Source: an uncultured Oscillospiraceae bacterium
GTDB lineage: Bacteria > Bacillota > Clostridia > Oscillospirales > Oscillospiraceae
Assembly: GCA_947627735.1 (NCBI GenBank)
Contig: CANQXG010000001.1
Location: 1-64,000 of the forward strand
Reading direction: 5' to 3'
Length of the DNA stretch: 64,000 bases
A program made the translations under genes and the position numbers. Positions 6,396 to 40,603 of the stretch are shown piece by piece. The notes beneath the pieces are model-generated. The model saw only the letters and a program-made list of their open reading frames with translations, did not search any database and was not told the origin of the DNA. Positions within the stretch are counted from its first letter, which is position 1, and the number at the start of each line of letters is the position of its first letter.

Positions 6396-6404
6396 ACGCC
6401 GGCC

Positions 6405-13344: not shown

Positions 13345-14307
<963 letters not shown>

Positions 14308-14311
<4 letters not shown>

Positions 14312-15249: not shown

Positions 15250-15251
15250 AT

Positions 15252-16031: not shown

Positions 16032-16032
16032 T

Positions 16033-17199
16033 TCACACATCCTCCTTTCCCGCGGCCAGGTCATCCTTTGGCCGCTGCTGCGTCTTGTTTCTGAACACGA
16101 CCTTGCTCAGCACATAGTTCAGAACGATCACGACCACCGCGTCCAGTATCTTTGGGAACGGCCCTTGAATGGCCATCACGTCCACCATGAACCACAGCAT
16201 CAGCATGTCCAGCACGCCGGTGGCCACACGGGACCCGACAAACCCGGCAAATTCCTTCCGAAGGGCCTCCCCCTTCCAGTTCCAGCTGTTGAATACGACA
16301 GCCTTGTTGGCAACGAATGAGAACAGCAGCGCGATCACCCACGCGACGACGTTCGCCGCCAGATAATACATGACGCCATCCAGCAGGAAGTAGACCAGCA
16401 GGTTGATGGCCGTTGTGAGCGCGCCCACCACGCAGTACAGCAGAAGGTCCACGAGCTGCTGGGCACGGGCGTCATGCTTTTGCGGGTCATACTTCTTCCC
16501 CGCCAGAATGCGCAGGAGGAAGGAGTACACCAGCATCCGCCCGAAGCAGACGATAAATTTCATCAGCGACCGCTTGGACTGGCCCATGATGCGCTTTTTG
16601 AATGAGATGGGCACCTCTCTGATGGTGATGGCGCCGCCCTTCATGAGCTTCAGCTTCAGGATGAGTTCTTCCGAGATATCAAAGTTCTCGCTGGTGAGAT
16701 GGAGCTGCCGCAGGTCCGCTGTCCGGCACAGGCGCAGACTGTCGGAAAAGTCATGGACGTTGACGCCGATGCCGATCCGGAAGCAGAAGTTGAGGACCCT
16801 GGACATGATCTGGGAGCTTTTGGCGTCATCCGTGGACCCGCCCGGTATGTACCGCGAGCCGATGACCACGTCCGTGTCGGGCGTCATCGCCTCATACATC
16901 TTCGGTATCTGGGTATAGTCCTGGGACCCGTCCGCGTCCAGGATCAGGAACAGCTCCTCGCCGGCATAACGGATGGCGGTCCTGTAGGCGCCGCCGTATC
17001 CCGGCTCCTCCTGGTTCACATACTTAGCGCCGAACGCCCGGCACACCTCCGGCGTGTCATCCGTAGGCTCCGCGGAGTCCACGATCAGATATTCCACCCG
17101 GTCGATGACCAGCGGGTCGATGACCTCTTTCAGATCCGGCAGCAGCCATTTCAGGTTTTCCGCCTCGTGATAGGCCAGGATCGTAACAGTCAGTCCCAC
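16033..17199 (-). CDS. Polyprenyl-phosphate glycosyltransferase fused to a GtrA-like flippase domain
   Basis: The N-terminal part (about 1-235) is a DPM1/CsbB-like family 2 transferase: TVTILAYHEAENL, LILDADGSQDY and GSRYIPGGS. From about residue 243 four hydrophobic helices form a GtrA domain (LLLYCVVGALTTAINLLVYF, later FSFVANKAVVFNSWNW). In Bacillus and Listeria the CsbB transferase, GtcA flippase and YfhO transferase are separate proteins that glycosylate lipoteichoic acid from the outside. Here the first two are one protein and two YfhO genes lie directly upstream, so the same three-step system is inferred. Confidence 0.87.
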   Translation of the reverse strand: MGLTVTILAYHEAENLKWLLPDLKEVIDPLVIDRVEYLIVDSAEPTDDTPEVCRAFGAKYVNQEEPGYGGAYRTAIRYAGEELFLILDADGSQDYTQIPKMYEAMTPDTDVVIGSRYIPGGSTDDAKSSQIMSRVLNFCFRIGIGVNVHDFSDSLRLCRTADLRQLHLTSENFDISEELILKLKLMKGGAITIREVPISFKKRIMGQSKRSLMKFIVCFGRMLVYSFLLRILAGKKYDPQKHDARAQQLVDLLLYCVVGALTTAINLLVYFLLDGVMYYLAANVVAWVIALLFSFVANKAVVFNSWNWKGEALRKEFAGFVGSRVATGVLDMLMLWFMVDVMAIQGPFPKILDAVVVIVLNYVLSKVVFRNKTQQRPKDDLAAGKEDV

Positions 17200-17200
17200 G

Positions 17201-19954: not shown

Positions 19955-19955
19955 C

Positions 19956-22697: not shown

Positions 22698-22765
22698 TTT
22701 TCTCCCCCTGTTTCACTTGATCCCGCGACGCTGCCACCGGGACATCCGGCCATAACATACCGTAA

Positions 22766-25516: not shown

Positions 25517-25544
25517 GTTCCGGTGTTTGCTCCTTCTGTCTTTG

Positions 25545-26639
25545 TTATATTCTTCTGCTCAACGCGAGCGCCGATGCTATGACCTCATGCATATCGTAAT
25601 ATCTGTACTCGCCCAGCCTGCCGCCAAAAAAGATATTGGGCTGATCCATCGCCAAGGCTTTATAGCGTTCATATTTCTGCTGGTTCTTATCATCGTTGAT
25701 CGGATAATACGGCTCACTGCCCGGCGTCCACGTCATTGGATACTCGTGGGAGATGACCGTCCGCGGCTGCGTGCCAAATTCAAAGTGCTTATGCTCGATG
25801 ATCCGTGTGAACGGCGTTTCTCTGTCGGTGTAATTCATCACGGCCACGCCCTGATAATTGTCTGTATCCCTTACCTCCGTTTCAAAGCGGAGAGTGCGGT
25901 ATTCAAGCGGACCATAGCAATAGTCGAAATAGGAGTCGATCGTGCCGGTGTAGACGGTCGTTTCAGCGATGTTTTCAAACTCCGAACGGTTCTCGTTGTA
26001 GTCCGCGCCAAGGATGACCTCACTGCCGGACAGGAGCTTTTCAAATATCTGCGTATATCCACCGACCGGAATGCCCTGATAGGGGTCATTGAAGTAGTTG
26101 TTGTCATATGTAAAACGCACCGGCAGCCGGCGGATGATAAATTCCGGCAGCTCGCTGCACGGCCTGCCCCACTGTTTCTCCGTGTAGCCTTTCACCAGCT
26201 TTTCATATATATCTCTGCCGACCAGCTGTATCGCATGTTCCTCCAAATTCCGGGGCGGCGCCTTCAACTCCTGCCGCTGCGCTTCAATGATCGCCTTCGC
26301 CTGCTGCGGCGTACTGATGTTCCACATCCGGCTGAAGGTGTTCATGTTGAACGGTATGTTGTATAGCTCCCCGTGGTAATTCGCTATCGGAGAGTTGATG
26401 AAGTGGTTGAACTGCGCGAACTGCCGGATATAGTCCCATACCTCTTTATTTGACGTATGGAAAATATGGGCCCCATAGGTGTGGACCTGTATCCCTTCGA
26501 TCTGTTCCGTATAGCAGTTGCCGCCGATATGGCTCCGCCGGTCGATGACCAGACAGCGCTTTCCGCGTATTGTGGCCTCATGGGCAAACACGGCGCCGAA
26601 CAGGCCCGCTCCCACGATCAAATAATCATATTTTTCCAT
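25545..26639 (-). CDS. glf: UDP-galactopyranose mutase
   Basis: A complete 364-residue flavoenzyme converting UDP-galactopyranose to UDP-galactofuranose. Motifs are YLIVGAGLFGAVFAHE (FAD), HIGGNCYTE, TYGAHIFHT, the mobile-loop region EKQWGRP..LP..IIRRLPVR, and FGGRLGEYRYYDM. I chose ATG 26639 because the similarity begins there; the frame upstream is uninterrupted but unrelated. It supplies the donor for the two GlfT2-like transferases. It serves as the in-window reference that shows the deletion in the fused Glf at 4812-6395. Confidence 0.93.
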   Translation of the reverse strand: MEKYDYLIVGAGLFGAVFAHEATIRGKRCLVIDRRSHIGGNCYTEQIEGIQVHTYGAHIFHTSNKEVWDYIRQFAQFNHFINSPIANYHGELYNIPFNMNTFSRMWNISTPQQAKAIIEAQRQELKAPPRNLEEHAIQLVGRDIYEKLVKGYTEKQWGRPCSELPEFIIRRLPVRFTYDNNYFNDPYQGIPVGGYTQIFEKLLSGSEVILGADYNENRSEFENIAETTVYTGTIDSYFDYCYGPLEYRTLRFETEVRDTDNYQGVAVMNYTDRETPFTRIIEHKHFEFGTQPRTVISHEYPMTWTPGSEPYYPINDDKNQQKYERYKALAMDQPNIFFGGRLGEYRYYDMHEVIASALALSRRI

Positions 26640-26655
26640 CGCCCATGTCCACCTA

Positions 26656-27918
26656 TCACTCACTGCAGTTCCGGCAGGACGGATAGTCCTGCAGCTGGTT
26701 TGTTCGCAGATGCCGGATAAAATCAAGATATGTCTTGCTTGTATATATTTCTTCCAAACTCTGTTCTCTCAGGTTGCCCAGTACGATCTCGTTATTGAAG
26801 ACCATGGGGCACGGGATCACATTCAGATCCCAGGTGACATATAGCTTGTTCTCCCGCATGGGGTATGGGTCGATAAAGCACTTTTTGACGCCCTCATTCG
26901 GCGCGGCAAAGTGAAACGCCTGCCCTCGGTTGTGGAGCGTCCTCCGGATCACTCGCACCGAGGGATGATCTTTCAGCCCGCCCTCGAATCGTTCTCTTAA
27001 TTCCGTCTGCCTCGCGTAGTCCAGCCCGCGCTGTTCAAAAAACGCCTGCCCAAAGTCCTCGACACCTACCACTATCTCTATCGGTCCGCCCAATGCCTCA
27101 TTTTTCTCGATCAGCGTATCGAGGTTTTTGCGCACGAGCTGCAGGCGGTCGGCGCCATGCAGCAATTTATACGTTTCGTCGTCGTACCCGTAGATGCTCA
27201 CCTGTATGCGTTTTATGCCCACGCGAAGGAACTCATCCCAGAAGGCGTCATCCTTTTCATATCCCAGCGTTGAAACCACTATCGGCATGCAGTTCGGCAT
27301 ACACTGTCTGATCTGGCGAATCTTGTCAAAGAAATCGTCCAGCAGCAGCACCTCGCCCATCCCATCTGTCCACACGACCATTTTTTTGCTCGCCTGAACG
27401 CCCAGCCGGGAGGCCACGAGCCGGATATCTTCCTCGCTCATAACGCCCTTCGGCCTGGTCATCTGCTCCCGGGGACAGAACACGCAGTTATATCCGCAAT
27501 AGTTCGTCAGCTCCAGCCCTACTTCAATATAATTTGGCACCTGGCCAAATACCGACTGCTCGATGAAACGCTTGTCCTGCAGGAGCCTGTTTTCTCTATA
27601 CGCAAGCTTCTGCAGTTTCCTTTTATTATCTGCCGCTTCCCGGTCGATTTTCGCGACGCAGTCCTTTTGGATTCGTTCAATCCGCTGTAGATCGCCCCTC
27701 AAATCATCAACAGACTTTTTGATCTTTGCCTGTTCCTGCCTTAAAAGGGCTATATCGTCATGTATGCTTCCCGCCTTGTTTGCAATGGCGCGATCTATCT
27801 CTGACAACCTGCTGTTGAGCATGTCGATCTCGCGCATAAAGCTCTTTGTCGGCGGCGGGAATACATGCTTTAACAGATCCTTTATCTTGCTGATGAAACT
27901 ATCGGGCAATTCCGTCAC
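26656..27918 (-). CDS. Radical SAM/SPASM protein with N-terminal coiled coil
   Basis: A 420-residue protein. Residues about 25-110 are highly charged with heptad-like repeats (coiled coil). The radical SAM cluster motif CGYNCVFC has Cys 141, 145 and 148, and the C-terminal FNNEIVLGNL...CRNCSE looks like a short SPASM-type auxiliary cluster site. SPASM proteins in glycan clusters can deoxygenate, epimerise or link sugars or cyclitols, but the substrate is unknown here. It overlaps the CBS-cupin gene by 4 bp, and a second radical SAM protein (29663-30757) lies three genes upstream. Confidence 0.78.
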   Translation of the reverse strand: MTELPDSFISKIKDLLKHVFPPPTKSFMREIDMLNSRLSEIDRAIANKAGSIHDDIALLRQEQAKIKKSVDDLRGDLQRIERIQKDCVAKIDREAADNKRKLQKLAYRENRLLQDKRFIEQSVFGQVPNYIEVGLELTNYCGYNCVFCPREQMTRPKGVMSEEDIRLVASRLGVQASKKMVVWTDGMGEVLLLDDFFDKIRQIRQCMPNCMPIVVSTLGYEKDDAFWDEFLRVGIKRIQVSIYGYDDETYKLLHGADRLQLVRKNLDTLIEKNEALGGPIEIVVGVEDFGQAFFEQRGLDYARQTELRERFEGGLKDHPSVRVIRRTLHNRGQAFHFAAPNEGVKKCFIDPYPMRENKLYVTWDLNVIPCPMVFNNEIVLGNLREQSLEEIYTSKTYLDFIRHLRTNQLQDYPSCRNCSE

Positions 27919-28661
27919 CCCCTGCCATACTTGTCCGCATACCGCTTCACGTCGTCCTCGCCGAAATACTCACCCAGCTGGACCTCCGTGAAAATCAGCA
28001 TATCTGTTTCCGAGATATTGGTGAGCCGGTGCCTGCAGCCTCGGGGGATAAAAATGCTCTGCCCAGGCGCGACCGTATGTACGGACTCGTCCAGCTGTAC
28101 CCAGCCTGTCCCGTTGACGATGATCCAGTACTCCTCCCGCCGCTCATGGCTCTGCAGGCTCAGTGCCTGGCCCGGCATGATGTACACCACCTTCGACTGG
28201 AACAAGTCGTTCAGGACCGTGGTCTTGTACCATCCCCAGGGCCGGGCAAATATCTCGTGCTCCAGCTCGGCTTCATCGATGCTGTCGAAATCATAGCCGA
28301 TCTGGAACCGCTGGTTTTTCAGCAGCAGCACGTTCAGCCCCCGGCGGGTGATGATATTGCGGAGCCTGCCAGCCTCGTCCAGGACCGGCAGAAACTCGAT
28401 CCGAGGCGACTGGAACCGGTCCAATATCCCGGACAGGTCCTCCCCGTCCCGCACATAGGTGAAATCCCTGCATATCACCGACTCGATGGGTTCGTCCATG
28501 CCCACGCCACGCAGCACGGCCCGCCGGATGTCCCCGTCCGTCAATGTTCCCGCCACGGTCCCGTCCCCGGCCAGTGCCACCAGGAACTTGACGTGGTTTT
28601 CATTCATATGGTCCAGCGACTGGAACAGGCTCCTATCCGCGCTGATGACGTGTTTTTTCAT
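27915..28661 (-). CDS. CBS-pair plus mannose-6-phosphate-isomerase-type cupin protein
   Basis: A 248-residue protein. The N-terminal half has two CBS motifs (VAGTLTDGDIRRAVLRG and LRNIITRRGLNVL) and the C-terminal half a type II mannose-6-phosphate isomerase cupin (ARPWGWYKT, QALSLQSHERREEYW, IFIPRGCRHRL). In Campylobacter Ptm/legionaminic clusters the CBS pair is joined to a nucleotidyltransferase (PtmE). Here the nucleotidyltransferase part is missing and a cupin takes its place. A role in making a phosphosugar precursor of the nonulosonate branch is plausible. The gene overlaps 26656-27918. Confidence 0.72.
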   Translation of the reverse strand: MKKHVISADRSLFQSLDHMNENHVKFLVALAGDGTVAGTLTDGDIRRAVLRGVGMDEPIESVICRDFTYVRDGEDLSGILDRFQSPRIEFLPVLDEAGRLRNIITRRGLNVLLLKNQRFQIGYDFDSIDEAELEHEIFARPWGWYKTTVLNDLFQSKVVYIMPGQALSLQSHERREEYWIIVNGTGWVQLDESVHTVAPGQSIFIPRGCRHRLTNISETDMLIFTEVQLGEYFGEDDVKRYADKYGRG

Positions 28662-28680
28662 GTGTTGTTTTGTCCTTTGC

Positions 28681-29572
28681 TTACCAAATCGTTCTTCCGC
28701 CGTCCAGCACCACCGTCGCGCCGGTCATGTAGGAGCTGGCGTCGGAGAGCATATACAGCACCGTCCCCACATACTCGTCCGGTCGGGACATCCGCCCCAT
28801 GGGGATGAGCTGTGATATCTTCTGCACGAACGCCGGGTCCTGGCCGTTCTCCAGGCTGGCCGGGCACAGGGTGTTGACCCGAACGCCCTTCTTCGCCCAG
28901 TAGACCGCCAGATACTTCGTCAGCCCCATGATGCCGTGTTTCACCACGGAATAGGACACCGGCTTGACGATCTGCTGGTCCTCCGGGACCCCCTCCTTGC
29001 GGTAGATGCTCTGGTTGGGCGCGATGATACCGTAATCGGAGGAGATGTTGATGATGACGCCCTTTCCCTGCTCCGCCATCACCTGGCCGAACACCTGGGC
29101 GCACAGGAGCGAACCCGTCAGGCCCACGGCGATGTCCTCGTTCCACATCTCCACGGGGAAGTTGTGGAACTGGATAGCCCCCAGGTTCTTGGACCCGCCC
29201 TCCACCTTTGGGTTGTTGGCGGCGTTGTTGATGAGGCCGTCGATGTGCCCGTACTTTGAAAGCAGCGCGTCCCGGACCTGACACAGGGCGTCCCGGCTGG
29301 TGATATCCGTCACGAACGTTTCTATGCGCGCGCCGGGATATGCCTTTTCCAGGTCGGCCTTCGTCCGCTCCATGCCGCCCGGGAATATGTCAAGCAGCAC
29401 GGCCACGCCGTCGCCGGACAGGATCGCCTCGGCGTGCTTCTTCCCCAGCAGTCCTCCGCCGCCGGTGACTATAAAGACCTTATCTCTGATCGAAAACAGC
29501 CGCTCCGCCGCGCCGCGGCCGGCTCTCTCTCTCTCTCTCTCTCTCTCTCGTATGGGTCGGATCGTCTTTCAT
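28681..29572 (-). CDS. PtmA-like SDR oxidoreductase, phase-variable, currently frame OFF
   Basis: ATG 29572 starts MKDDPTHT, then an (AG)13 tract of 26 nt puts translation out of frame, and a TAA stops it about 41 bases past the tract. The SDR body is intact in the next frame: VTGGGGLLGKKHAEA, NNAANNP, YSVVKHGIMGLTKYLAV (Tyr and Lys) and a C-terminal DGGRTIW. With 11 or 14 units the frame would be restored; 14 units give about 297 residues. No start codon in the body frame lies between the preceding stop (at 29571) and the Rossmann motif, so a full product needs tract change. The neighbouring CBS-cupin, Gfo/Idh and NeuB-like genes recall Campylobacter Ptm cassettes. Confidence 0.83.
29523..29549. 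repeat. Dinucleotide tract (CT)13 plus C within a coding region
   Basis: Thirteen CT units at 29523-29548 plus one C; coding strand AG, starting after codon 8 of the SDR gene. The coding-strand 3' flank is CCGGCCGCGGCGCGG, sharing GGCCGCGG with the other two tracts. Confidence 0.95.
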
Positions 29573-29662
29573 TTCTGCACCTCTGTTGTATTTCGGCAGC
29601 CGGACCGGCAGGGCCTTCGGCTGACCTTTATGCTTGTTCGAGGCGCAGAAACGATTCAGCGG

Positions 29663-30757
<1,095 letters not shown>

Positions 30758-30812
30758 TGTTTTTTCTCCTTTTGATCTCAAATGTAATCTTTTGCAGACG
30801 TTTTCTTTTTGC

Positions 30813-31850
30813 CTAAAACGGAAGGTCCACCGATCTGTGTTCCTCCGACGCTTTTTTGGCGGCGCAGGCCATGCGCAGGCTCACGGCGCCCTCCTCCAAT
30901 GTCAGCATATCCTGCCGGCGGCTCTTCACCGCCGCGAGGAACGCCTTCATCTCGTCCACGAACATCTGGTTGCGCTGGAAATCCGAAAACTCCTCCCGCG
31001 TTACCTGATCGCCCCGGGCCACCGTCACGCTCGCCCCCAGCAGGTCCGCCTCCGCCCAGCCGTTCTCCCATATCACCCGGCAGCACCGCCGGGGCGGATA
31101 TTGGAAGAAGTCCGCGTGAGCGCTCACCGGGAAGGCCCCCAGGGGTCCGTCCATCCAATAGATGGCCTCGCAGTAGTCCTCCACGCTGAGCGCAAGGCAG
31201 CTGTTGGTCCCGCAGAAGGCCGTGACCGCCTTCGGCGCGCCAAATATCCACTGCAGGTAGTCCAGCTCGTGGATCTGCTGGTTCATGATAACGCCGCCGC
31301 CCTGGTCCTTCCGGGCCATGTATGTGTCGGCGTAGTTCTCATAGGTGTGCATGGTGGTCAGCCGCTCGCCGATCTCCGAGCGCACGGATATGATGGGACC
31401 AAATTCCCGGGACCGCACCAGCTCCCGCAGCCGCCGCAGGCAGGGGTGGAACCGGTTCTGGAACCCCACGAACACGATGCGGCCGCCGTCCTTCGCCGCC
31501 TGGATCAGCTCGTCCACGCCCGCCATGTCATAGGATATGGGCTTTTCCAGGAACACGTCGCAGCCCGCCCGGACGGCCTTCAGGGCACAGGGGATGTGCT
31601 GGCTGGTGATGTTCGTCACATAGGCGACGTCCGGCCTCTGGGCCAGGGCCTCGTCCAGGTCGGAGAAGCTGCGGATGGCAAATGCGTCCTCCAGCCGGAC
31701 CCCCTCCCGGATCTGCATCGTGTCGGAGAACGTCCGCTGCAGGCCCCGGACGCGGTAGGCCAGAAACTCCGCCTCATCGCCCAGATACGCCCGCAGATTG
31801 CGCAGATGCCGCTGGCCGATGCTCCCCAGGCCGATCATCAGTATTTTCAT
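30813..31850 (-). CDS. Gfo/Idh/MocA-family oxidoreductase
   Basis: A 345-residue NAD(P)-dependent sugar dehydrogenase. The Rossmann start is MKILMIGLGSIGQRHLRNL, then VFLEKPIS (the EKP catalytic lysine motif) and IHELDYLQWIFG. ATG 31850 is preceded by GAAGGAG and overlaps the upstream cytidylyltransferase stop by 4 bp. In nonulosonate and Ptm-type clusters such enzymes oxidise or reduce an intermediate; the exact substrate is not readable. It lies directly upstream of the ON-state radical SAM gene. Confidence 0.85.
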   Translation of the reverse strand: MKILMIGLGSIGQRHLRNLRAYLGDEAEFLAYRVRGLQRTFSDTMQIREGVRLEDAFAIRSFSDLDEALAQRPDVAYVTNITSQHIPCALKAVRAGCDVFLEKPISYDMAGVDELIQAAKDGGRIVFVGFQNRFHPCLRRLRELVRSREFGPIISVRSEIGERLTTMHTYENYADTYMARKDQGGGVIMNQQIHELDYLQWIFGAPKAVTAFCGTNSCLALSVEDYCEAIYWMDGPLGAFPVSAHADFFQYPPRRCCRVIWENGWAEADLLGASVTVARGDQVTREEFSDFQRNQMFVDEMKAFLAAVKSRRQDMLTLEEGAVSLRMACAAKKASEEHRSVDLPF

Positions 31851-32611
31851 GGCTGCTCCTTCTCCGCCTCGCACCGGCGCAGATACGCCATGATCTCGTT
31901 ATCGAACAGCGACACCGCCTCCGTCGTTTCCTCAAACTCCCGGATGCTGTCTATGTCGACGGTCTCCGGGACCTCGAATCCGATCATCCTCTCCCCGTGC
32001 AGCAGATGGTGCTCAACGATGTATTCCGTTCGCAGCACATCCACATACCCGTCCGGGATATACATGGCCGGGAACCCCTGTCGCGGGCCGTTGGCCCGGT
32101 CCAGGGAGATGCCGTTGAACGCCTGATAATAGCCGTCCTCCGAGCGCCAGAACCACTTGAACGGGCACAGGTCCGTTCTGTGGGCCGAGCGCAGGGAATC
32201 CGCCGTGCTGTCGGCGGTCATCTGCCCGATGGCGCTGCGGATCACCGATATCTCCCGCAGCGGCGTGGTGGGCCGCAGATGGACCCAATACTCCGGCAGC
32301 ACATCCTCGTGCTCGTCCAGCCAGTGGATGGCGTGGAGCATGAACTCCACATCCGTCGCCATGTTCCCCGCTATCTCCGCCGGGCGCAGGAAGGGCACGT
32401 CCGCCCCGTAGGACCTGGCGATCTGGGCGTACTGCTCCGAGTCGGTGGACACGATGACCCGCCGCACCTCCGGCGTCAGCTTGCCTGCCGCGATGCTGTA
32501 CGCCATGAGCGGGTGTCCCGCCAGGGGCTTGATATTCTTGTTCTTCACGCCCGTGGACCCGGACCGGGCCGGCACGATGGCATAGATCAGGCCCTTTTGG
32601 ATAGGCTTCAT
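31847..32611 (-). CDS. CMP-nonulosonate (acylneuraminate/Kdn-like) cytidylyltransferase
   Basis: A NeuA-like cytidylyltransferase of 254 residues: YAIVPARSGSTGVKNKNI, LAGHPLMAYSI, VSTDSEQYAQIA and LRPTTPLRE are all family signatures. It activates the nine-carbon keto acid as CMP-sugar for transfer. ATG 32611 follows GGAGG at 10 bases. It forms an overlapping chain with the HAD phosphatase and NeuB-like synthase genes. The set NeuB-like without SAF, KdsC-like phosphatase and CMP-transferase equals the three-enzyme Kdn pathway described in Bacteroides thetaiotaomicron, so CMP-Kdn is one candidate product. Confidence 0.88.
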   Translation of the reverse strand: MKPIQKGLIYAIVPARSGSTGVKNKNIKPLAGHPLMAYSIAAGKLTPEVRRVIVSTDSEQYAQIARSYGADVPFLRPAEIAGNMATDVEFMLHAIHWLDEHEDVLPEYWVHLRPTTPLREISVIRSAIGQMTADSTADSLRSAHRTDLCPFKWFWRSEDGYYQAFNGISLDRANGPRQGFPAMYIPDGYVDVLRTEYIVEHHLLHGERMIGFEVPETVDIDSIREFEETTEAVSLFDNEIMAYLRRCEAEKEQP

Positions 32612-33099
32612 TTCCCGCTGTCCTCCCGACTGTTCAGAATTTCCCGGCACAGCTGGCGGATCACACCGCAGCCGCCGTCTTTCTCGGATACCCAGCCGCT
32701 TATGGCCAGCACCTCCGGCTCCGCGTCCCGCGGGCAGCCGCAGGCGCCCACCGCCTGCATCGCCGCCAGATCGTTGACGTCGTTGCCGATGAACATCGCC
32801 TCCTGGGGCGAGAAGCCGTTTTCCCCGCAGTAATCCAGGACGGCCTGCCGTTTATCCTCCACGGCGTGGAGAACGCCGATCTTCAGCTTCCGCGCCCGCT
32901 GCTCCACGATGGGATTGACCTCCGTGGAGATGATAACCTGGCGGATGCCGGCCTCCCGGAGCAGCCGCACGCCCGTGCCGTCACCGCGATGGAAGACGGC
33001 CGACTCCTCGCCCGTCTCCGACACGATGACCCGGTTGTCCGTGAGCACCCCATCACAGTCGTAGATGAGGAGCCTGACCCTGGAAAAGTCCATGCTCAC
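32608..33099 (-). CDS. KdsC-like HAD phosphatase (nonulosonate 9-phosphate phosphatase)
   Basis: A 163-residue C0-type HAD protein: YDCDGVLTDN nucleophile loop, IISTEVNPIV, EDKRQAVLDY and IGNDVNDLAAM. The absence of a cap domain and the length match KDO-8-phosphate and Kdn-9-phosphate phosphatases. It overlaps both neighbours by 4 bp, so it most likely removes the phosphate left by the NeuB-like condensation. Its presence implies that the synthase uses a phosphorylated aldose. Confidence 0.87.
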   Translation of the reverse strand: MSMDFSRVRLLIYDCDGVLTDNRVIVSETGEESAVFHRGDGTGVRLLREAGIRQVIISTEVNPIVEQRARKLKIGVLHAVEDKRQAVLDYCGENGFSPQEAMFIGNDVNDLAAMQAVGACGCPRDAEPEVLAISGWVSEKDGGCGVIRQLCREILNSREDSGK

Positions 33100-33974
33100 C
33101 GGCCCCGATATTTTAGCTTGTCCCGCTGCACCTGCTCGATGGGCAGGATCTCGCTGTCCTTATAGGTCAGCGCCTGCTGCACGTCGTGCAGGTCTTTTAC
33201 CAGCTTTCTGAACTCGTCCGGCTCCAGGGAGGCTGCGTGGTCCGTCCCCTTCCAGGTCTTGTCCAGCGTATAGTGGCGCTCTATGACCTCCGCCCCCAGC
33301 GTATAGGCGGCGATATCCACCGCCGTGCCCAGATGGTGGCCGGAGAATCCGATCTTCTTCACCGTGCTGCCGAAGGTCTTTTTAAGCCTCGTCAGCTCCA
33401 GCAGGCACACGTCCCCGTAAGGCACCGGGTACCCGGAGGTGCAGTCGAAGATCACCAGGTCCTTGTTCCGCCCGCTTTTGACGAATAGGTCCACGATCTT
33501 CTCCTCCTCCTCGTGGGTGGTCATACCGAAGGAGAGCTGGACCTCGCCGCCGTAGTTGTCGCACAGCCACTGGAGCATGGCGAAGTTGTTGTTGCTGGCG
33601 GAGGGGATCTTGATGAACTGCGGCTCGATGGCGGCGATCTCCTTGGCGGAGGTCATGTCCCACACAGAGGTGGAATAGACGATACCGAACTGCTCGCACC
33701 AGGCCTTCAGCTGCCGGTGCTGCTCCGCCGTGAACTCCAGGAATTCCCGGTGCTCCCCGTAGGTCTTTCCGTAGGAATTGGCGGGATTGGGATGGGGCGC
33801 GTTATACTGCTCCGGGGTCAGCAGCTCCCGGTTGCAGCGCTTCTGAAACTTGATGGCGTCCGCCTTGCAATACAGCGCCGCCGTGGCGATCAGGTCCCGG
33901 GCGATGGACATCTCGCCCTTGTGATTGCACCCCGCCTCGGCGATGATGAACGGTTTAGTGTAGGTCGTTTTCAT
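33096..33974 (-). CDS. NeuB-family nonulosonate (Kdn/sialate-type) synthase lacking the SAF domain
   Basis: A 292-residue PEP-condensing TIM barrel: FIIAEAGCNHKGEM at the start, then AIKFQKR, FGIVYSTSVWD, FIKIPSASNNN and the C-terminal VIERHYTLDKTWKGTDHAAS. Standard NeuB proteins are about 340 residues and end with an antifreeze-like SAF domain; here the chain stops after the barrel. SAF-less forms include the Kdn-9-phosphate synthase type. Start ATG 33974. A phosphorylated hexose plus PEP is the likely substrate pair because a KdsC-like phosphatase follows. Confidence 0.85.
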   Translation of the reverse strand: MKTTYTKPFIIAEAGCNHKGEMSIARDLIATAALYCKADAIKFQKRCNRELLTPEQYNAPHPNPANSYGKTYGEHREFLEFTAEQHRQLKAWCEQFGIVYSTSVWDMTSAKEIAAIEPQFIKIPSASNNNFAMLQWLCDNYGGEVQLSFGMTTHEEEEKIVDLFVKSGRNKDLVIFDCTSGYPVPYGDVCLLELTRLKKTFGSTVKKIGFSGHHLGTAVDIAAYTLGAEVIERHYTLDKTWKGTDHAASLEPDEFRKLVKDLHDVQQALTYKDSEILPIEQVQRDKLKYRGR

Positions 33975-34007
33975 TTGATCTATCTTCCTCCGGTCTTATA
34001 TAACTTG

Positions 34008-34997
34008 TCATAGGGCATTCTGTTGCGCCCTTCTCATCTCTCCGTCCTGCCATCGGAACCATTCCCGGGCCGGCACGTCAAACAGGGCCGTGGACGCGAT
34101 CGCCGTGACACAGTCAAAGCTGACCCCGGCCAGACGGAACATCTCCGCCGGGATAGTCCGGTCAAGGACGACTACCCCCATGCCGGAATAGTCCGCCGCG
34201 TCCCGGGGATGGGGCTTGAGCATCACCGCATATCCCCGCGCTCTCAGCGCCCTCACGATATCCCGGTAGACGGCCAGCTGCTCCTCCTCGGTGTCCATCA
34301 GCCCGTCTTCCACGAATGGCTGTGTCAGCACCAGCGCCGTCTTTCCCTGGACCGGCGGCACCTCCGGCCTGCCGAACACATCCAAAAGGAGCTGTTTGTC
34401 CTCCGGCCTCAACGCGTCGAACAGGGGCTTTCGCGGCACCTCCACCAGCCGCTCCCGGGGCAGCTCCACGCCGTCCAGGTCGTTGACCTCGATCTCCCGG
34501 ACCAGCCCGTCCTCCCCGAAGTACAGATACCCGATGTGGAACAGCCGCTTTATCAGCGCCTTCAGGCCCTTCTGAGGCAGCATATGGGCAAAGGGTCCGG
34601 TGGTGAGGATCTTGTAGCTGTCCAGCCCGTCCTCCACGATCCGGTAGGGCAGCCGCCGGTCCTTCATGTAATGGGCCATCCAGGTCCCGTCGTGGAAGAT
34701 GTTCACCTCGTCGTAGTCCTCAAACCGGAATCCCGCCGGGAAGCTTTTCTCGATGGCCGCCGCGCTTTTCCGGTGGTAGAACAGGGCGTGGTCTATCGCA
34801 TTGGAAAAGACATACTCCTCCACGCCGCCTATGTACACCGTCCGGCGAAACAGCCCGCTTTCCTCGATCCTGCGGGCCAGCGCCGCCCCCTCCGGGATGT
34901 ACCCAGTGATGAGGATATCCGCCTCCTGCCGGTCCACCAGCTGCTTCACGCAGGCGATCAGGGCGTGGTAATAGGTGGAGCATACGTAGAGCTTCAT
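34008..34997 (-). CDS. Putative sialyltransferase-like glycosyltransferase (GT52-like)
   Basis: A 329-residue protein. The start MKLYVCSTYYHALIACVKQL and VMLKPHPRD with CVTAIASTALFD resemble the bacterial alpha-2,3-sialyltransferase/GT52 and polysialyltransferase groups (HP motif and S/T pair near the C-terminus). YRIVEDGLDSYKI in the middle is also typical. It sits immediately after the CMP-nonulosonate genes, so it probably transfers that sugar to the glycan. The assignment is by motif memory and context and is moderately sure. Confidence 0.72.
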   Translation of the reverse strand: MKLYVCSTYYHALIACVKQLVDRQEADILITGYIPEGAALARRIEESGLFRRTVYIGGVEEYVFSNAIDHALFYHRKSAAAIEKSFPAGFRFEDYDEVNIFHDGTWMAHYMKDRRLPYRIVEDGLDSYKILTTGPFAHMLPQKGLKALIKRLFHIGYLYFGEDGLVREIEVNDLDGVELPRERLVEVPRKPLFDALRPEDKQLLLDVFGRPEVPPVQGKTALVLTQPFVEDGLMDTEEEQLAVYRDIVRALRARGYAVMLKPHPRDAADYSGMGVVVLDRTIPAEMFRLAGVSFDCVTAIASTALFDVPAREWFRWQDGEMRRAQQNAL

Positions 34998-36526
34998 ATC
35001 CCCAGATACCTCTCCCAGAACTCCAAACTCGTCAGCTCTCCCAGCTGGGCCTGATACGCCGCCCGCACCTTTTTATAGCCCCGGACGAACGCCCCCATCA
35101 CCGGCAGCAGCCGGATCGGGTCCGTCAGGATGCTGGCCAGGCGGCTCTTGCCCGGCTTTTTCATCTCCGCCAGAAGCGCCTCATTCAGCGCCTCGCCGTC
35201 TGTTTCCAGGAAGAGATCCGGCCCACGCAGAAAGTCCCGGTACGCCCGCAGCAAAAAACCTATCGCCCGTGTGTCCCCCAGCAGCACCGCTTTCCCCGCC
35301 CCCCGGATCAGCTTCATCAAACCGGGCCATACGCCCGCGCCGCTGCCGTGGAGTGCACTAGTCACCAGCTCGTTGCGCTTGATGTAATACTCCAGATGGA
35401 CGCTGTACTTCTCGTCGAACCGCCGATGCCACACGCCGATGCCGTTCATCAGCAAAAAGGCAGCATCCATCCGCAGGCCGTACTCCACATCGTCTATTTT
35501 GATGAACAGCGGCAGCGGCAGCCCGATCATATCGACCGCTCCCAGAGGGATACAGCAATACCACCAAGCGTTATACTGCACGCGGCGCTCTCTCTCATTC
35601 GCCAAAAGAGCTGCCGGACCCGTCAGTTCCAGGCCCTGTCCCATCGGCCTTAAGCGGCCCTTTTGAAACAGCGCTCCCGCCTCATACTGCACCGTGGGCG
35701 CATCCTCCAGGAGCATCTGCCCGCCGACGCACAGGGGCCTGTCCGACGGCTTGGCATACCGCAGCAGCTGCACCGTCTTTACCAGCGCCTCCGTTTCAAA
35801 GGAGATGTCGTCGTCCATGAACAGGACGTGGGTGTATGTGTCCCGCCGGCGATATGCCTCCATGAGGCCCCGGGTAAAACCCCCGCTGCCGCCGCAGTTC
35901 CGGTTGGGGAACAGCTTCACATGGTCATCCTCCGCCAGCGTCAGCGTCCGGCCGTTGTCCACCACGAACAGGTCCAGCGCCTCCCGGATGGGGCAGTTTT
36001 CATCCCCCCACACCGTCTGGCGCAGCTGGGCCAGGTTCCGGGCCACATAGTCCTCCCGGCGGTAGGTGCACATCACTGCCGCCACCTTCACACCATTCAC
36101 AGGCGGCAGGTCAGACTCCCATTGGCCCCGGAGAAACCGGACAGTCCCGTCCGCCGCCTGCACCGTCAGGTACAGCATCCCCTCCGCCGGCAGCGGCGCC
36201 AGGTCTATGGCGGGCAGATGAACCTCGCCGGACACGCGCTTTTCAAGCAGCGTCCTCTCCCCGTCCTGCGTGAACAGACGCACCGAGAGCAGGACTTCGC
36301 CCTCTACCTCCGCCCGGAGGGATACGCCGGTCACATGGGTGTACCGCAGGTACTTGGGATAGAAAAAGCCGTTGAAGTAGCTGTCGAAGGTCACGACGCC
36401 TCCCGCGGGGATTGTCATTCCATCCCGGTCACAGGTGGCTGCGTCGTCTGCGTGGTAGTAGAGCGCGGACCGGTCCGTCCTGTCCGGGCCGGGAAGGATG
36501 ATGCGCGACAATACCGTTCCCATCAT
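34994..36526 (-). CDS. GlfT2-like galactofuranosyltransferase
   Basis: A 510-residue protein with the GlfT2 arrangement: an N-terminal beta-sandwich (about 1-150), a GT-A core with FMDDDISFE (metal site), KIDDVEYGLR and GIGVWHRRFDEKYSVHLEYY, then helical tail. It is the single-domain counterpart of the fused gene at 22766-25516. Two enzymes may add Galf at different positions. It overlaps the DUF4422 gene and the sialyltransferase-like gene by 4 bp each. Confidence 0.85.
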   Translation of the reverse strand: MMGTVLSRIILPGPDRTDRSALYYHADDAATCDRDGMTIPAGGVVTFDSYFNGFFYPKYLRYTHVTGVSLRAEVEGEVLLSVRLFTQDGERTLLEKRVSGEVHLPAIDLAPLPAEGMLYLTVQAADGTVRFLRGQWESDLPPVNGVKVAAVMCTYRREDYVARNLAQLRQTVWGDENCPIREALDLFVVDNGRTLTLAEDDHVKLFPNRNCGGSGGFTRGLMEAYRRRDTYTHVLFMDDDISFETEALVKTVQLLRYAKPSDRPLCVGGQMLLEDAPTVQYEAGALFQKGRLRPMGQGLELTGPAALLANERERRVQYNAWWYCCIPLGAVDMIGLPLPLFIKIDDVEYGLRMDAAFLLMNGIGVWHRRFDEKYSVHLEYYIKRNELVTSALHGSGAGVWPGLMKLIRGAGKAVLLGDTRAIGFLLRAYRDFLRGPDLFLETDGEALNEALLAEMKKPGKSRLASILTDPIRLLPVMGAFVRGYKKVRAAYQAQLGELTSLEFWERYLGI

Positions 36527-37335
36527 GTCCTCCCGATAACGCCCTTTACTGCTGCCCGGCGCTTCGTCCCCGGGGGCAGTAGCACGTTCAGCGCCCGGCG
36601 CTTGTAATACGCCCCGCCGGCATAGAAATGCGCCCGGGGCAGCTCCAGTGTCCGCAGCTCATGCCGCCGGTATGTGGCGTACACCCCCAGCAGCCGCTCC
36701 GCCAGGTACCCATCCACCCGGGGTCCCGGGTCCGATACCTCGCCGTCAAAGGCCGCCAGCAGCGGGAACAGCCAGGCGCAGTAGTCCTGAAACACGTCCC
36801 GGCCCATGATGAAGATGTTGCCGAAGAACTGCACCGTGCCGCCCAGATATGTGTCCAGGGCCGCCGCCATCTCCGGATGCGTCTGGCGGACCAGTTCCTC
36901 CGCCAGGGCCAGGTCTGCGGCCCGATGATGCCGGGCGTAATGGTCCCGCACGGGCACACGCATATCCTCCCCCATGGGTAGGATCATGTCGTATCGCCCG
37001 ATCAGCGCCGCAAAGCGGTCATAGCCCAGCGCCTCCAGATCCGGATCCCGCCGGATGATGTAGGGCCGCTTGGCGTCCGTGTCCGGGTAAAGATACCGCC
37101 GGTAGTGGAAAAAGCCGTACCGGTCCGCCCGGACGTTCTTCCAAGCCCAGTATTGGCCGGTGAGTTCGCAGTAGGAGCGGTTTTTATCGGAGATGTTCTC
37201 CCCCTCGTCGTCATGGGCAAAGCCGGGGAACCGCTCTCCCGCCAGCGCCGCGCCCACCTGCAGGGGCCGCAGCAGCGGGTGCGCCGGCACCGCCTGCCGC
37301 TCATGGCAGCAGATGAACAGCTTTATGTCGGACAA
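36523..37335 (-). CDS. DUF4422 glycosyltransferase-like protein
   Basis: A 270-residue protein beginning MSDIKLFICCHE and containing ENISDKNRSYCELTGQYWAW and YGFFHYRRYL, the hallmark of DUF4422 proteins in capsule clusters. A later DHYARHHRAADL and FFGNIFIMGRDVFQDYC are also typical. The family is thought to be glycosyltransferases; neither donor nor acceptor is known. It is the first glycan gene after the recombinase-like genes, 3 bp downstream of one of them. Confidence 0.82.
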   Translation of the reverse strand: MSDIKLFICCHERQAVPAHPLLRPLQVGAALAGERFPGFAHDDEGENISDKNRSYCELTGQYWAWKNVRADRYGFFHYRRYLYPDTDAKRPYIIRRDPDLEALGYDRFAALIGRYDMILPMGEDMRVPVRDHYARHHRAADLALAEELVRQTHPEMAAALDTYLGGTVQFFGNIFIMGRDVFQDYCAWLFPLLAAFDGEVSDPGPRVDGYLAERLLGVYATYRRHELRTLELPRAHFYAGGAYYKRRALNVLLPPGTKRRAAVKGVIGRT

Positions 37336-37338: not shown

Positions 37339-38154
37339 TCAGCTCTCCCACCCATGCTCCGTCTGCTCCTGCTCTGCTCGTTCTATCATCAGCCGCTCCA
37401 CAGTCTGCGCTGTTATCTCAACCCGGGTCTGCTCGTACAGCTTCCTTAGCGTGCGGACACAGGCCTTGCCGGCCCCGAACCCTGTCGCCTTGCTCACCGC
37501 CTTGATGTGCAGCCGCACGGTCTCCGCCCGCAGCGGCTCCCCGCCCCTGCCCACGAATATCCGCCCGCCGCGGACGCCATTGTGCAGGGCATAGTCCAAA
37601 AGCTCCTCCCGCAGGCTGTCCGGCAGGCGGACAGCGGTGGTCCCGTCCCGCACCGCCTCCACCGTCAGGGCCAGGAAGTCCGCCATCTCCATGTCCGTGC
37701 AGGCGAAGGCCCGCATGGCCAGATAGGCCAGGGGCTTTCCCATCGCCCGCGCCGTCGTCAGCAGGTGCAGGTATTCCTCCCGGGTGAGCGCCGCCGGGGA
37801 CGGCTCCTGTTTCCCGATATAGCTGGTGAGCTGATAGCTCTCGTAGCCCCTGTAGCGCAAAAAGGCGTTGCAAGCACTGGTGAGCATGTTCACATGGGCG
37901 GCGGAATAGGTGTCTGTCAGGCTCTCCACCCAGTTGGCCAGCGTATCCTCCCGGACCCGCTTGTCCGCCGGCAGGGCGTCGTAAAAGGCCAGCAGCGCCC
38001 TGCGGTAGCGGGCGACCGTACTGGGGCTGAGGTCCGCCTTCAGCCGCCCGACAAAGTCCTCGATATCCGACCGCCCCATCTGAAAGCCGGCCTCCGCCGC
38101 CGCACCGGCGCGGCCCCGCGCCGCACGCTCCCGGACGGGAAATATCTCCCGCAT
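37339..38154 (-). CDS. Degenerate tyrosine-recombinase-like protein 3
   Basis: A 271-residue protein with both recombinase regions: an N-terminal SAM-like helical domain (GRLKADLSPSTVARYRRALL) and a catalytic-fold domain (ALTREEYLHLLTTA). The arginine I position is lost (ACTDMEMADFLALT), the HxxRH box reads RTLRKLY, and no C-terminal nucleophile tyrosine is visible. Strand transfer is therefore unlikely. Start ATG 38154 lies behind GGGAGG at somewhat long spacing. It could bind DNA or an active recombinase, as an accessory or regulator. It is co-transcribed with the other two degenerate copies. Confidence 0.78.
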   Translation of the reverse strand: MREIFPVRERAARGRAGAAAEAGFQMGRSDIEDFVGRLKADLSPSTVARYRRALLAFYDALPADKRVREDTLANWVESLTDTYSAAHVNMLTSACNAFLRYRGYESYQLTSYIGKQEPSPAALTREEYLHLLTTARAMGKPLAYLAMRAFACTDMEMADFLALTVEAVRDGTTAVRLPDSLREELLDYALHNGVRGGRIFVGRGGEPLRAETVRLHIKAVSKATGFGAGKACVRTLRKLYEQTRVEITAQTVERLMIERAEQEQTEHGWES

Positions 38155-38159: not shown

Positions 38160-38618
38160 TTACACCTCCCGGTCCGCCAGTTCGTTCATGAGCTGCTCCG
38201 CCTCGCCGGCGGCCATGGCCTCGGCCTCCGCCCGCGCCGCCAGATACAGCCGCTGCAGGGCCTTGGGCCGGCACATGCCCTCGCCCAGGCCCGCCGCCGC
38301 GCCCAGGCCGCGCAGGATCGCGGACACCCGCTGCACGTCCAGAGGCCGGCCGCTGCGGGTGGCAAATACCGGCCCGGACAGGATGTTCTTCCGGGCGGCA
38401 TAGGCCAGCAGCTCACTTTTAAGGCCCTCGGGCAGCGGAACATCTCTTACTCGGCCCGCCCGGACGGCCTCCACCGTCAGCACCGGCAGTTCGGACACGG
38501 AGATGCCCGTCAGGGCAAACACCTTCACCAGCAGGTAAGCCGGCTCCCGGCCCAAAACCCTGGCCGTGTCCAGCAGATGGAGATACTCCGCCCGGGTAAG
38601 CTCTTCCGTCCCCGCCAT
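38160..38618 (-). CDS. Degenerate tyrosine-recombinase-like protein 2 (catalytic-fold half only)
   Basis: A 152-residue protein comprising only the C-terminal catalytic fold: ELTRAEYLHLLDTARVLG, ALTGISVSELPVLT (arginine I replaced by serine) and PKALQRLYLAARAE in place of the HxxRH box; no nucleophile tyrosine. The N-terminal DNA-binding domain is absent, so it may be a dimerisation partner or a remnant. Start at 38618 is 4 bp after the preceding stop, consistent with translational coupling; the open frame extends upstream only inside that gene. Confidence 0.72.
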   Translation of the reverse strand: MAGTEELTRAEYLHLLDTARVLGREPAYLLVKVFALTGISVSELPVLTVEAVRAGRVRDVPLPEGLKSELLAYAARKNILSGPVFATRSGRPLDVQRVSAILRGLGAAAGLGEGMCRPKALQRLYLAARAEAEAMAAGEAEQLMNELADREV

Positions 38619-38622: not shown

Positions 38623-39438
38623 TCACACGTCCCAGCCGCAGAGGGCCTGTTCCCGTTCAAGCAGCGCGTCCATGGCCTCCTCGTCCCGCAGCTCCGCCAG
38701 CGTGTTTTGATATAGCTTCTGCAGGCTCCGGGGCGTACCCTTGCCGCCCGTCAGACCCGCCGCCAGGCTCACTTCCCGCAGGCACTTGGCAACGCCCGCT
38801 TCCTGGGGCGCCGTGCCGGCCCGGGTGCCAAAGATCATCCCCGTCCGGCCGTGGAAGGCGGCATAGCTCAGCAGTTCCCGGCACAGGCACGGCGGCAGAC
38901 GGACCGCCCTGGTCCAGCATATGACCTCCCCCGCGCGCACCGAATCCACGGTGAGAAGGCCCAGGTCCCGCACCGGGATGCCCGTCACGGCGAACAGCTT
39001 GATGAGCAGATAGGACCGCTCCTTCCGCAGCGCTTTCGCCGCGGCCAGCAGGCGGTGATACTCCTCCCGGGTCACGGCGGGCAGGCTCGTCTTGCCCGGC
39101 GCATACCGCCCGCTCCGCCGGTACTGCTCCGCGCCCATATACTGCAGCCAGCGGTCGCATACGGCGCCGAAGTAGTTCAGCGTGTTGGGGGAATACCCCT
39201 CGCCCGCCAGCTCTTCCAGCCACAGGTCCACGGTCCCCCGGCGGATGCGCTTGTCCTCCGGAAGCCACTCATGGAGCATCCGCAGTGTCCGGTCATACCG
39301 CATCGCGGTGCCCGGCTGGCTCCGCTCGCCCAGCGCGGCGATGAAGCGTCCGATGTCCTCTTCCCCCATCCGGACGCCCTCGTCCTGGACGGGCCGCGCC
39401 GCCCGGCGCGGGGAGGGCTGCCGCGCAAGCTCCTGCAT
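38623..39438 (-). CDS. Degenerate tyrosine-recombinase-like protein 1 (first gene after the invertible segment)
   Basis: A 271-residue protein with N-terminal (GRFIAALGERSQPGTAMRYD) and catalytic-fold domains. Arginine I is proline (VTGIPVRDL, Pro 155), box II reads RSLQK at 237-241 instead of HxxRH, and there is no tyrosine nucleophile. Start ATG 39438 follows AGGAG at 8 bases; a longer open frame runs through the left inverted repeat but has no ribosome site. Being the first gene transcribed from the invertible promoter, its level should follow the switch state, which would suit a feedback or directionality role (inference). Confidence 0.8.
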   Translation of the reverse strand: MQELARQPSPRRAARPVQDEGVRMGEEDIGRFIAALGERSQPGTAMRYDRTLRMLHEWLPEDKRIRRGTVDLWLEELAGEGYSPNTLNYFGAVCDRWLQYMGAEQYRRSGRYAPGKTSLPAVTREEYHRLLAAAKALRKERSYLLIKLFAVTGIPVRDLGLLTVDSVRAGEVICWTRAVRLPPCLCRELLSYAAFHGRTGMIFGTRAGTAPQEAGVAKCLREVSLAAGLTGGKGTPRSLQKLYQNTLAELRDEEAMDALLEREQALCGWDV

Positions 39439-39515
39439 GGGCCGAACTCCTTTCTCCGCAGGCGGAATAGTCAAAATAAAGCGTCTGTCCAAAAATACTG
39501 TACACAACATTAGAA

Positions 39516-39544
39516 ATAATAACACATTTCTATATCATTGACAA
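39516..39544 (-). promoter_or_regulatory. Glycan-operon promoter inside the invertible segment
   Basis: On the minus strand TTGTCA (39539-39544) and TATTAT (39516-39521) are separated by 17 bp, a near-consensus sigma-A promoter. The start would be near 39508, giving a leader of about 70 nt that crosses the left repeat arm before the AGGAG site of the first gene. I saw no other comparable promoter in the short gaps of the operon, although internal ones inside genes cannot be excluded. Confidence 0.78.
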
Positions 39545-39666
39545 GTGGAAAACAGCGCAATAACAGCGCCTGATTGTCTGATTTGGAAAATACGGGCATG
39601 AACACAGGGCCGTTGACAAAATCGCTTTCAACGGCCCGCTTCAGTGCGCTCTTAAGGCCCGATCTG

Positions 39667-39700
39667 CCGCCCCGCAAGAAGTCTTGCGGGGCGGTTTTTT
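39667..39700 (+). terminator. Rho-independent terminator inside the invertible segment, plus-strand orientation
   Basis: A perfect 13-bp stem, CCGCCCCGCAAGA (39667-39679) with TCTTGCGGGGCGG (39682-39694), is followed by six T. No plus-strand gene lies upstream of it. A weak plus-strand promoter (TTGACA at 39538-39543, 17 bp, TAACAG) could make a short RNA of about 130 nt ending here. After inversion the terminator would face the glycan operon. Confidence 0.88.
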
Positions 39701-39760
39701 GCTCTGATCTCCATGAGATATCTGCTCATGATAGACAGACGCTTTATTTTGTTTGCATCG

Positions 39761-40603
39761 CTAACTGACCAGCCCCAGCCGGTCCAGGGTCCGGGCGTGC
39801 TCCATGCCGGTGGTGATGAGGTATATCCGCGTCGTGTTTATGCTGGAGTGGCCCAGCACGTCCGCCAGCTTCACGATGTCCCGGCAGGCCCGGTAGAACA
39901 CCGTGGCGAACAGGTGCCGCAGGTTGTGGGGAAACACCTTCCCCGTTTCCACCCCCGCCAGTGTACATACCGCCTTCATCTCCGCCCATATCTGCCGCCG
40001 GCTCAGGCTCTTTCCGCTTCTGGTGAGAAAGATCTCGCCGGAGGCGATTTTGTTTTTCCTGGCGTATTTCAAAAGCTTCCGGCACAGCTTCCCCGGCAGC
40101 ATGATGGTCCGTATTTTCCCCTTCAGGGCGATCTCCGCCCTGCCCATTTGGGCTGCTTCCACCGTTATGTACCGCACTTCCGACACCCGGATGCCGGTGC
40201 CGCAGATGGTCTCCATGAGCAGGGCCAGACGCGATTTTCCGCCGTCCTTCGCGGCGGCCACCAGCTTTTCATACTCCGCCTTGGTCAGCTCCCGGCCCGG
40301 GTCCCGGAAGGCCCGGCGCTGGAGCCGCAGGGCCTTGACGCGGCAGTCCTCCCAGCCACAGAACTTGAAAAACGCATTCACCGCCGCCAGCTTGGCGTTC
40401 ACCGTCGCCGGGGCATATCCCCGGGCCATAAGCTGTTCCTTCCATGCCACCGCCAGGTCCTTAGTGACCTCCCGCCCGTCCAGCCATGCGGCGAACCCGC
40501 GGACGCTCCGCAGATACGCCTCGACGGTGCCCTCCGCCCGCTCGTCACCGCGAAGGTACGTAGCAAATGCCTCAACGCTCCGGATATCCATCTCTCTACT
40601 CAT
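39761..40603 (-). CDS. Catalytically complete tyrosine recombinase (putative invertase of the promoter segment)
   Basis: A 280-residue XerC/D-like recombinase with all six catalytic residues visible: Arg 139 (GTGIRVSEV), Lys 163, His 226 and Arg 229 (HNLRH), His 252 (GHSSINTT) and nucleophile Tyr 261 (RIYL). The N-terminal core-binding domain spans about 6-90. Start ATG 40603 has AGGAGG 9 bases upstream; the longer frame to 40879 crosses a terminator and is rejected. Its stop is 9 bp from the right repeat arm. Transcription reading through it would enter the invertible segment. Its own promoter is probably in 40604-40690, where an AT-rich TATAAA stretch occurs. Confidence 0.9.
   Translation of the reverse strand: MSREMDIRSVEAFATYLRGDERAEGTVEAYLRSVRGFAAWLDGREVTKDLAVAWKEQLMARGYAPATVNAKLAAVNAFFKFCGWEDCRVKALRLQRRAFRDPGRELTKAEYEKLVAAAKDGGKSRLALLMETICGTGIRVSEVRYITVEAAQMGRAEIALKGKIRTIMLPGKLCRKLLKYARKNKIASGEIFLTRSGKSLSRRQIWAEMKAVCTLAGVETGKVFPHNLRHLFATVFYRACRDIVKLADVLGHSSINTTRIYLITTGMEHARTLDRLGLVS

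Follow-up and report, generated by a model that had tools for sequence, protein, structure and literature searches.

We analysed a 64,000-nucleotide stretch of DNA from an uncultured Oscillospiraceae bacterium of the gut (contig CANQXG010000001.1 of assembly GCA_947627735.1, positions 1 to 64,000; hereafter the window), in which a 280-bp segment lies between the gene of a tyrosine recombinase, P0002, and a 34-kb operon. The segment is very probably an inversion switch, that is, a promoter segment inverted by the adjacent recombinase. An earlier note on the same DNA had proposed such a switch for a surface-glycan operon. The glycan genes are indeed there, but the note overlooked that the first three genes of the operon (37339-39438) are recombinase homologues without catalytic residues, not glycan genes. 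We refer to these dead homologues as D1, D2 and D3 (Table 1). On balance we favour a model in which P0002 inverts the segment and thereby switches the 34-kb operon, and in which the dead homologues bind the enzyme and damp inversion while the switch is ON, the state in which the promoter faces the operon.

The segment is bounded by a perfect 18-bp inverted repeat with 244 bp between the arms, as the note had claimed. Perfect arms in 200 dinucleotide-shuffled versions of the surrounding 650 bp reached 14 bp at most. When two mismatches were allowed, no second copy of the arm was found in the 2.36-Mb, 72-contig assembly, and a search of viral contigs gave no match to the arm. The site reads ACAAAAT-AAAG-CGTCTGTC, with halves and centre divided by eye, by analogy with B-type relatives (see below). 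Within the spacer we recovered the near-consensus promoter described before, with 10 of 12 consensus matches and a TG preceding the second hexamer; as a consensus match, it would drive the operon in one orientation only. The opposed T-tailed terminator was found as well, a plus-strand hairpin of 13 pairs (39666-39695) followed by a T run (fold -29.2 kcal/mol, z -5.3). The mapping given earlier for the inversion, x to 79223-x, is right: the flipped promoter would read into the 3′ end of the recombinase gene, and the flipped terminator-like hairpin, lying with its T tail at 39522-39557, would point at the operon. The fold of a second hairpin in the spacer (-18.4 kcal/mol, z -3.1) was equalled in 2 of 200 shuffles, and similar hairpins were seen by eye in related A-type spacers.

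Table 1. Features of the predicted switch and its operon, in window positions.
Feature	Position	Strand	Basis or remark
Active tyrosine recombinase P0002, predicted invertase	39761..40603	-	Phage_integrase 3.2e-25; R/E/K/H/R/H/Y
Inverted-repeat arm, recombinase side	39734..39751	+	On the recombinase strand: outer half ACAAAAT, centre AAAG
Terminator-like hairpin and T run, now directed toward the recombinase	39666..39701	+	Fold, sequence
Second spacer hairpin, GGGCCGTTGA...TCAACGGCCC	39608..39640	.	Without T run; fold
Promoter-like site TTGTCA-17-TATTAT, extended -10, toward the operon (ON)	39516..39544	-	Consensus match only
Inverted-repeat arm, operon side	39472..39489	+	Sequence
D1, dead recombinase homologue: core-binding and truncated catalytic domain	38623..39438	-	Sequence, AlphaFold model
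D2, dead homologue, catalytic-domain-derived part only	38160..38618	-	Sequence
D3, dead recombinase homologue	37339..38154	-	Sequence
DUF4422 gene, heading the non-recombinase part of the operon	36523..37335	-	Domain match
Surface-glycan genes	4812..36526	-	Domain matches

The gene of P0002 starts with an ATG after a GAGGAGG stretch and its stop codon (39761-39763) lies 9 bp from the repeat arm; all catalytic residues listed in Table 1 are kept, in agreement with the claim of a complete recombinase at this place. The catalytic R, K, H, R, H and Y were likewise complete in 42/42 active homologues. Judged by its position, P0002 is predicted to be the cognate enzyme of the element. We rejected P0002 as a housekeeping XerD or XerC, as it scored 117.8 bits against a cut-off of 329.6 for XerD and 112.2 against 335.15 for XerC. 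The AlphaFold model of D1 is Xer/integrase-like, with a predicted local distance difference test value (pLDDT) of 86.3 and a predicted template modelling score (pTM) of 0.65.

To place the window among its relatives, homologues of P0002 were sought in 35 genomes of the genus and were present in 23, dead ones and fragments included. Full-length copies numbered 12 in one genome and 8 in another (some contigs look duplicated). The family set consists of 40 regions, numbered L, mostly the best-matching homologues; the identical L052/L061 and L067/L068 are counted twice, and L035 and L066, as well as L111, L114, L129 and L130 among further homologues of the genus, were left out before scoring because they had too little downstream DNA. 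In A-type loci (the window, L033 and L036-L040) the order is element, dead genes, glycan genes. In B1 loci the dead gene lies after a large protein, which in several of them has a signal-peptide-like start. The downstream DNA examined in the 16 B2 loci, for several of them only 0.8-5 kb, showed no dead gene.

An inverted repeat around about 217-320 bp was found close behind the recombinase 3′ end in related loci, and the arm score was at least 12 in 33/39 family loci compared to 4/780 shuffles. Weak arms, of score 9, are frequent in shuffles (215/780), so for L037, L038, L040, L059 and L062 the support comes from homology to relatives in the opposite orientation, not from the repeat score. The promoter scan returned one dominant promoter per spacer in 40/40 loci, directed toward the operon in 12 and toward the recombinase in 28, with L043 uncertain in orientation (promoter margin 1.7 bits). 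Terminators, taken as a hairpin stem of at least 8 followed by a T run, were found in 18 loci, and the strongest hairpin opposed the promoter in 16 of them, the exceptions being L043 and L046. The window's own genome holds loci in both states: those on contigs C1 (the window locus) and C19 are ON, and the one on C5, with a recombinase 92% identical to P0002 and the centre TCTT (by eye), is OFF. L041 and L042 carry an extra copy of the recombinase-side arm 9-31 bp after the recombinase match, giving two possible left arms. In L101 (3252-4108, the same place as L133) the recombinase of an ON-state cassette is split into two overlapping frames, which may reflect a frameshifted recombinase with a stuck switch or an assembly error.

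Related loci were thus found in both orientations and with arms, not in one orientation without conserved arms, and this supports the inverton reading of the earlier note. Between L041 and L042, from two genomes of the genus, 273 bp of spacer match at 99.6% identity once one of the two is inverted, and the adjoining flank is colinear (101 bp, 95% identity). Inverted spacers at about 90% identity were observed in L038/L040, L064/L069 and L048/L053. The clearest pairs have also exchanged their inner half-sites. In L059/L062 the inner half-sites showed 8 mismatches when compared arm by arm and 0 when crossed, and the outer half-sites 0 and 6, respectively. Among seven opposite-state pairs tested in this way, three gave a clear swap (L059/L062, L034/L072 and L038/L040), L036/L037 and L041/L042 leaned toward it, and L064/L069 and L048/L053 gave no swap signal either way; L034 compared with L067 gave the same result as L034 with L072. 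Because inner half-sites were exchanged and outer ones unchanged, the crossover must have fallen within a few central bases (4-6 bp).

The centre was examined in the 26 distinct B-type site pairs of the first 40 regions, both sites being chosen by the half-site consensus alone; A-type sites were compared by eye only. The 4-bp centre was equal between the two arms as an inverted repeat in 26/26 loci and read directly in 0/26, and agreement between different loci was 3.4%. Within a genome the centres were mostly private, shared ones occurring in L059/L062, in L039/L040 and in near-identical loci of genome G026. Half-site swaps between relatives show that strand exchange of this kind took place in this family of switches. 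For the window's own copy we infer inversion from these relatives.

The dead proteins form a family of their own. The Tyr, the beta-Lys and both His were lost in 38/38 dead domains and the first Arg in 37/38, the second Arg being retained in 30/38, and the clade has its own conserved C-terminal Glu-Gln-Trp pattern. Across 44 active-dead pairs all dead proteins fell into one clade (44/44, support 0.95). Distances within pairs correlate (Mantel r 0.38, 0/2000 permutations as high). The ratio of nonsynonymous to synonymous substitution rates (dN/dS) was 0.09-0.36 in 11 dead pairs and 0.09-0.34 in 4 active pairs; by this sequence measure the dead genes are under purifying selection. In L033 (5869-8070, plus strand) three dead modules, a full one, a catalytic part only and a full one, are fused into a protein of 733 amino acids.

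With a strict cut-off the dead family was detected in 16/300 genomes of the bacterial family and 13/106 genera, the own genus included, and in 8/394 genomes of the order sample, three of which belong to a second family. L199, from this second family, lies in a genome of two contigs with 100% completeness, and one dead-gene match in the order sample has an internal stop. Outside the order, class and phylum samples gave only weaker, active-like matches to the dead profile; these (155.8-161.7 bits) end before the C-terminus, look active and were not counted. The named relatives that match the dead-gene profile are mostly uncultured Oscillospiraceae, which fits the Oscillospirales-type organism assumed earlier, and 27/38 come from assemblies named 'Lapin...', a prefix that we read as rabbit.

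The dead genes mostly stand behind an active relative. Of the distinct dead genes, 56/84 are preceded on their own strand by an active homologue, 31 to 5,424 bp away, and in 33/44 active-dead pairs arms scoring at least 12 lie right behind the active gene; in the other 11 the arms score below 12 or are misplaced, L108 and L178 having no convincing arms. The arrangement of active enzyme, element and dead gene is also seen beyond the genus, for example in assemblies named Ca. Intestinimonas pullistercoris (L103) and Anaeromassilibacillus (L074), and in a Flavonifractor-named assembly (L095), there with an arm score of only 9. Among 17 regions around dead genes from other genera, 11 have an active homologue, 8 of these with arms of at least 11, and two of five such regions in the second family of the order have one, with arm scores of 14 and 22. 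Solitary dead recombinase genes were also seen, with more than 9 kb upstream lacking an active homologue (L141, 7573-8421, and L142, 7731-8579).

How the dead proteins might act was considered from their charge. The mean net charge is +3.8 in dead and +21.5 in active proteins; by part, active proteins have +4.6 in the core-binding and +16.9 in the catalytic part, compared to +0.2 and +3.6 in dead ones. Among conserved basic columns, 26 were lost, 12 kept and 12 new in the dead proteins. Because so much positive charge has been lost, contact with a protein is favoured over free DNA binding. In our model the active recombinase would bind a site of about 24 bp in each arm and exchange strands in a matched centre of 4-6 bp. 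In the ON state, which is that of the window, transcription from the promoter would cross D1, D2 and D3 before reaching the glycan genes. With the segment flipped to OFF, the promoter would point antisense at the recombinase 3′ end, the operon being shielded by the terminator. Production of the dead homologues would be confined to ON, so that their dose would report the state of the switch, and mixed assemblies of dead and active enzyme could slow or bias the return to OFF. Given this predicted restriction to ON, the dead proteins are best pictured as state-dependent modulators of the recombinase, most likely damping it. Taken by itself, the claim that they act on the recombinase of their own switch falls just short of an even call. 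We put forward only tentatively, with doubt prevailing, a broader proposal in which one clade of domesticated, dead recombinases governs switches from within: made only in ON, its members would form mixed assemblies with the active sister enzyme and set the duration of the ON state, in genomes with some ten independent memory switches. The switches would be independently addressed because most loci have their own enzyme and their own crossover word. The switched traits in such a genome would be surface sugars, giant surface proteins and a helicase, a part of the proposal that we hold with the same reserve.

Several observations weigh against this account. For the window's own copy a single orientation was observed, and among the 35 genus genomes its exact spacer occurs in its own and in none of the other 34. 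Eight further genus homologues (L112, L113, L115, L118, L120, L121, L149 and L150) have arms not above shuffle level at this position. For 28/84 dead genes there is no active gene in the upstream DNA examined; this DNA was shorter than 4 kb for 17 and longer than 4 kb for 11, L101 with its split active frame being among the latter. In B2 loci, where no dead gene turned up in the DNA examined, arms are present and the promoter occurs in either orientation, so the dead protein is probably dispensable for the chemistry. The ON fraction was 7/21 in loci with a dead gene and 4/16 in B2 loci without one, which gives no sign of a lock. The Mantel correlation may come from joint inheritance alone, and the core-binding part of D1 keeps a charge of +4 compared to +5 in P0002, which weakens the charge argument.

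The chief alternative, within the same switch, would have the dead proteins bind DNA and regulate transcription, either of this operon or of loci elsewhere. The reuse of an inactive recombinase as a repressor, known from MrpR, keeps this idea alive; the lowered positive charge of the dead proteins speaks against a DNA-binding repressor without deciding the matter, and we regard the idea as rather unlikely. They could also act in trans on the other invertons of the same genome, such that few surface loci are ON together. Eight genomes contain surface-protein cassettes with a dead gene, and at most one is ON in each (6 ON of 18), but this pattern is not separable from chance (about 0.2 by hand estimate), and the centres differ between most loci, so that cross-talk via the sites looks disfavoured; we consider action in trans improbable. 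As paralogues beside an active copy, with one match in the order sample carrying an internal stop, the dead genes might be remnants of duplicated recombinases, decaying while they are carried along in the operon. Against this stand their dN/dS values, which are like those of active pairs, their single clade with its own C-terminal pattern and their long open frames in many genera, which leave decay very unlikely.

Doubts about the switch itself carry still less weight. The element of this strain could be frozen ON with inert repeats, as its single observed orientation would allow, but the arms are perfect over 18 bp, the enzyme is intact and the closely related C5 locus is OFF; we consider a frozen element highly improbable. 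A run of four recombinase-like genes that has repeats within it also recalls a recombinase-in-trio (RIT) mobile element that was inserted upstream of the operon by chance. A RIT element consists of three intact tandem recombinases inside the element ends. Here only one of the four recombinases is catalytically complete, for which reason a RIT element was rejected, and what the repeats enclose is 244 bp of promoter DNA instead of the genes, so that insertion of a RIT-like element is the least probable of these explanations, with next to no weight.

The operon behind the switch encodes galactofuranosyl- and polysialyltransferase-like enzymes, NeuB, a cytidylyltransferase and UDP-galactopyranose mutases, and also YfhO, GtrA, sugar-nucleotide enzymes and an ATP-binding cassette (ABC) ATPase. 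No strong minus-strand terminator was seen inside the 34 kb; terminator candidates on the two strands numbered 17 and 16, compared to 12.1 and 13.4 in shuffles. From this layout the full operon would be read as one transcript. At 4812-6395 (minus strand) a single frame combines an ABC-transporter ATPase (TagH/Wzt-like) with a UDP-galactopyranose mutase. Two radical-SAM/SPASM proteins (29663-30781 and 26656-27918, minus strand) lie within the operon, where they are unusual beside sugar genes. In other loci, some B2 invertons are followed by a helicase, in L053 (3170-5710, minus strand) one that has a ResIII domain and six helicase-associated repeats, possibly a phase-variable DNA-acting or defence protein; similar N-termini were found in L048 (second long frame) and in L057 and L065 (first long frames). 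In L058 (4066-13203, plus strand), L045, L047 and L048, the first long frame directly behind the inverton encodes a giant protein, with lengths of about 2,070-3,045 amino acids, the one in L058 having a Listeria-Bacteroides repeat domain.

Taken together, the data suggest that many switches of surface glycans and surface proteins operate side by side in this uncultured Oscillospiraceae group. The usual description of a phase switch names an enzyme and its repeats; here the switched operon brings dead copies of the enzyme along, in many genera. With the dead copies in the operon, state-dependent feedback on a DNA switch becomes directly testable. The family also provides natural recombinases with sites that are alike except, for the most part, in a short centre; these are useful for studying how paralogous switches avoid cross-talk and for building independent switches.

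The proposed feedback can be likened to the orientational control of fimS in Escherichia coli, where the orientation of the inverton alters the recombinase supply and biases switching; the affected protein is active there and dead here. In Clostridioides difficile, one recombinase (RecV) serves several segments, whereas the loci examined here have their own adjoining recombinase and mostly their own centre. The RecV switches, as far as the consulted part of PMC5903667 describes them, otherwise resemble ours in using a tyrosine recombinase and invertible segments before surface genes in a member of the Firmicutes. According to the same portion of that paper, the capsule promoters of Bacteroides fragilis are alike in promoter inversion before multiple surface-glycan loci, but Mpi, which acts on at least thirteen regions, is a serine recombinase, whereas P0002 is a tyrosine recombinase (Phage_integrase) and the recombinases are local here. 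The gut tyrosine-recombinase promoter invertons in the available sections of a 2025 survey (PMC11892184) share the short repeats around a promoter, the local recombinase and the switched surface genes; in contrast, the switched unit here itself carries catalytically dead invertase homologues. Those sections link a Clostridia inverton group (139) to a tyrosine-recombinase invertase group (35), and describe invertase genes as lying, as a rule, where inverton promoters could not regulate them, group 145 being a possible exception. Inverton group 139 may be the same lineage as the switch family described here.

Inactive tyrosine recombinases put to other use are known elsewhere. As outlined in the consulted part of PMC10516654, MrpR, the master repressor of the SPbeta prophage, has a tyrosine-recombinase fold without catalysis, as do D1-D3, and acts on its own repeats; in contrast to this phage repressor, the dead genes here lie mostly behind an active relative and its element. 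The inactive recombinase TnsF of Tn6022 serves, by the available account in PMC10293859, as a target selector of the transposon. Dead recombinases in switched operons are not described in the consulted portions of PMC11892184, PMC5903667 and PMC8371274, and a literature search, with most subscription journals outside its scope, gave no title or abstract opening among those listed that mentions dead recombinases within phase-variable operons. The switch itself is an inverton of a known kind, and the dead homologues inside the switched operon appear to be the new part.
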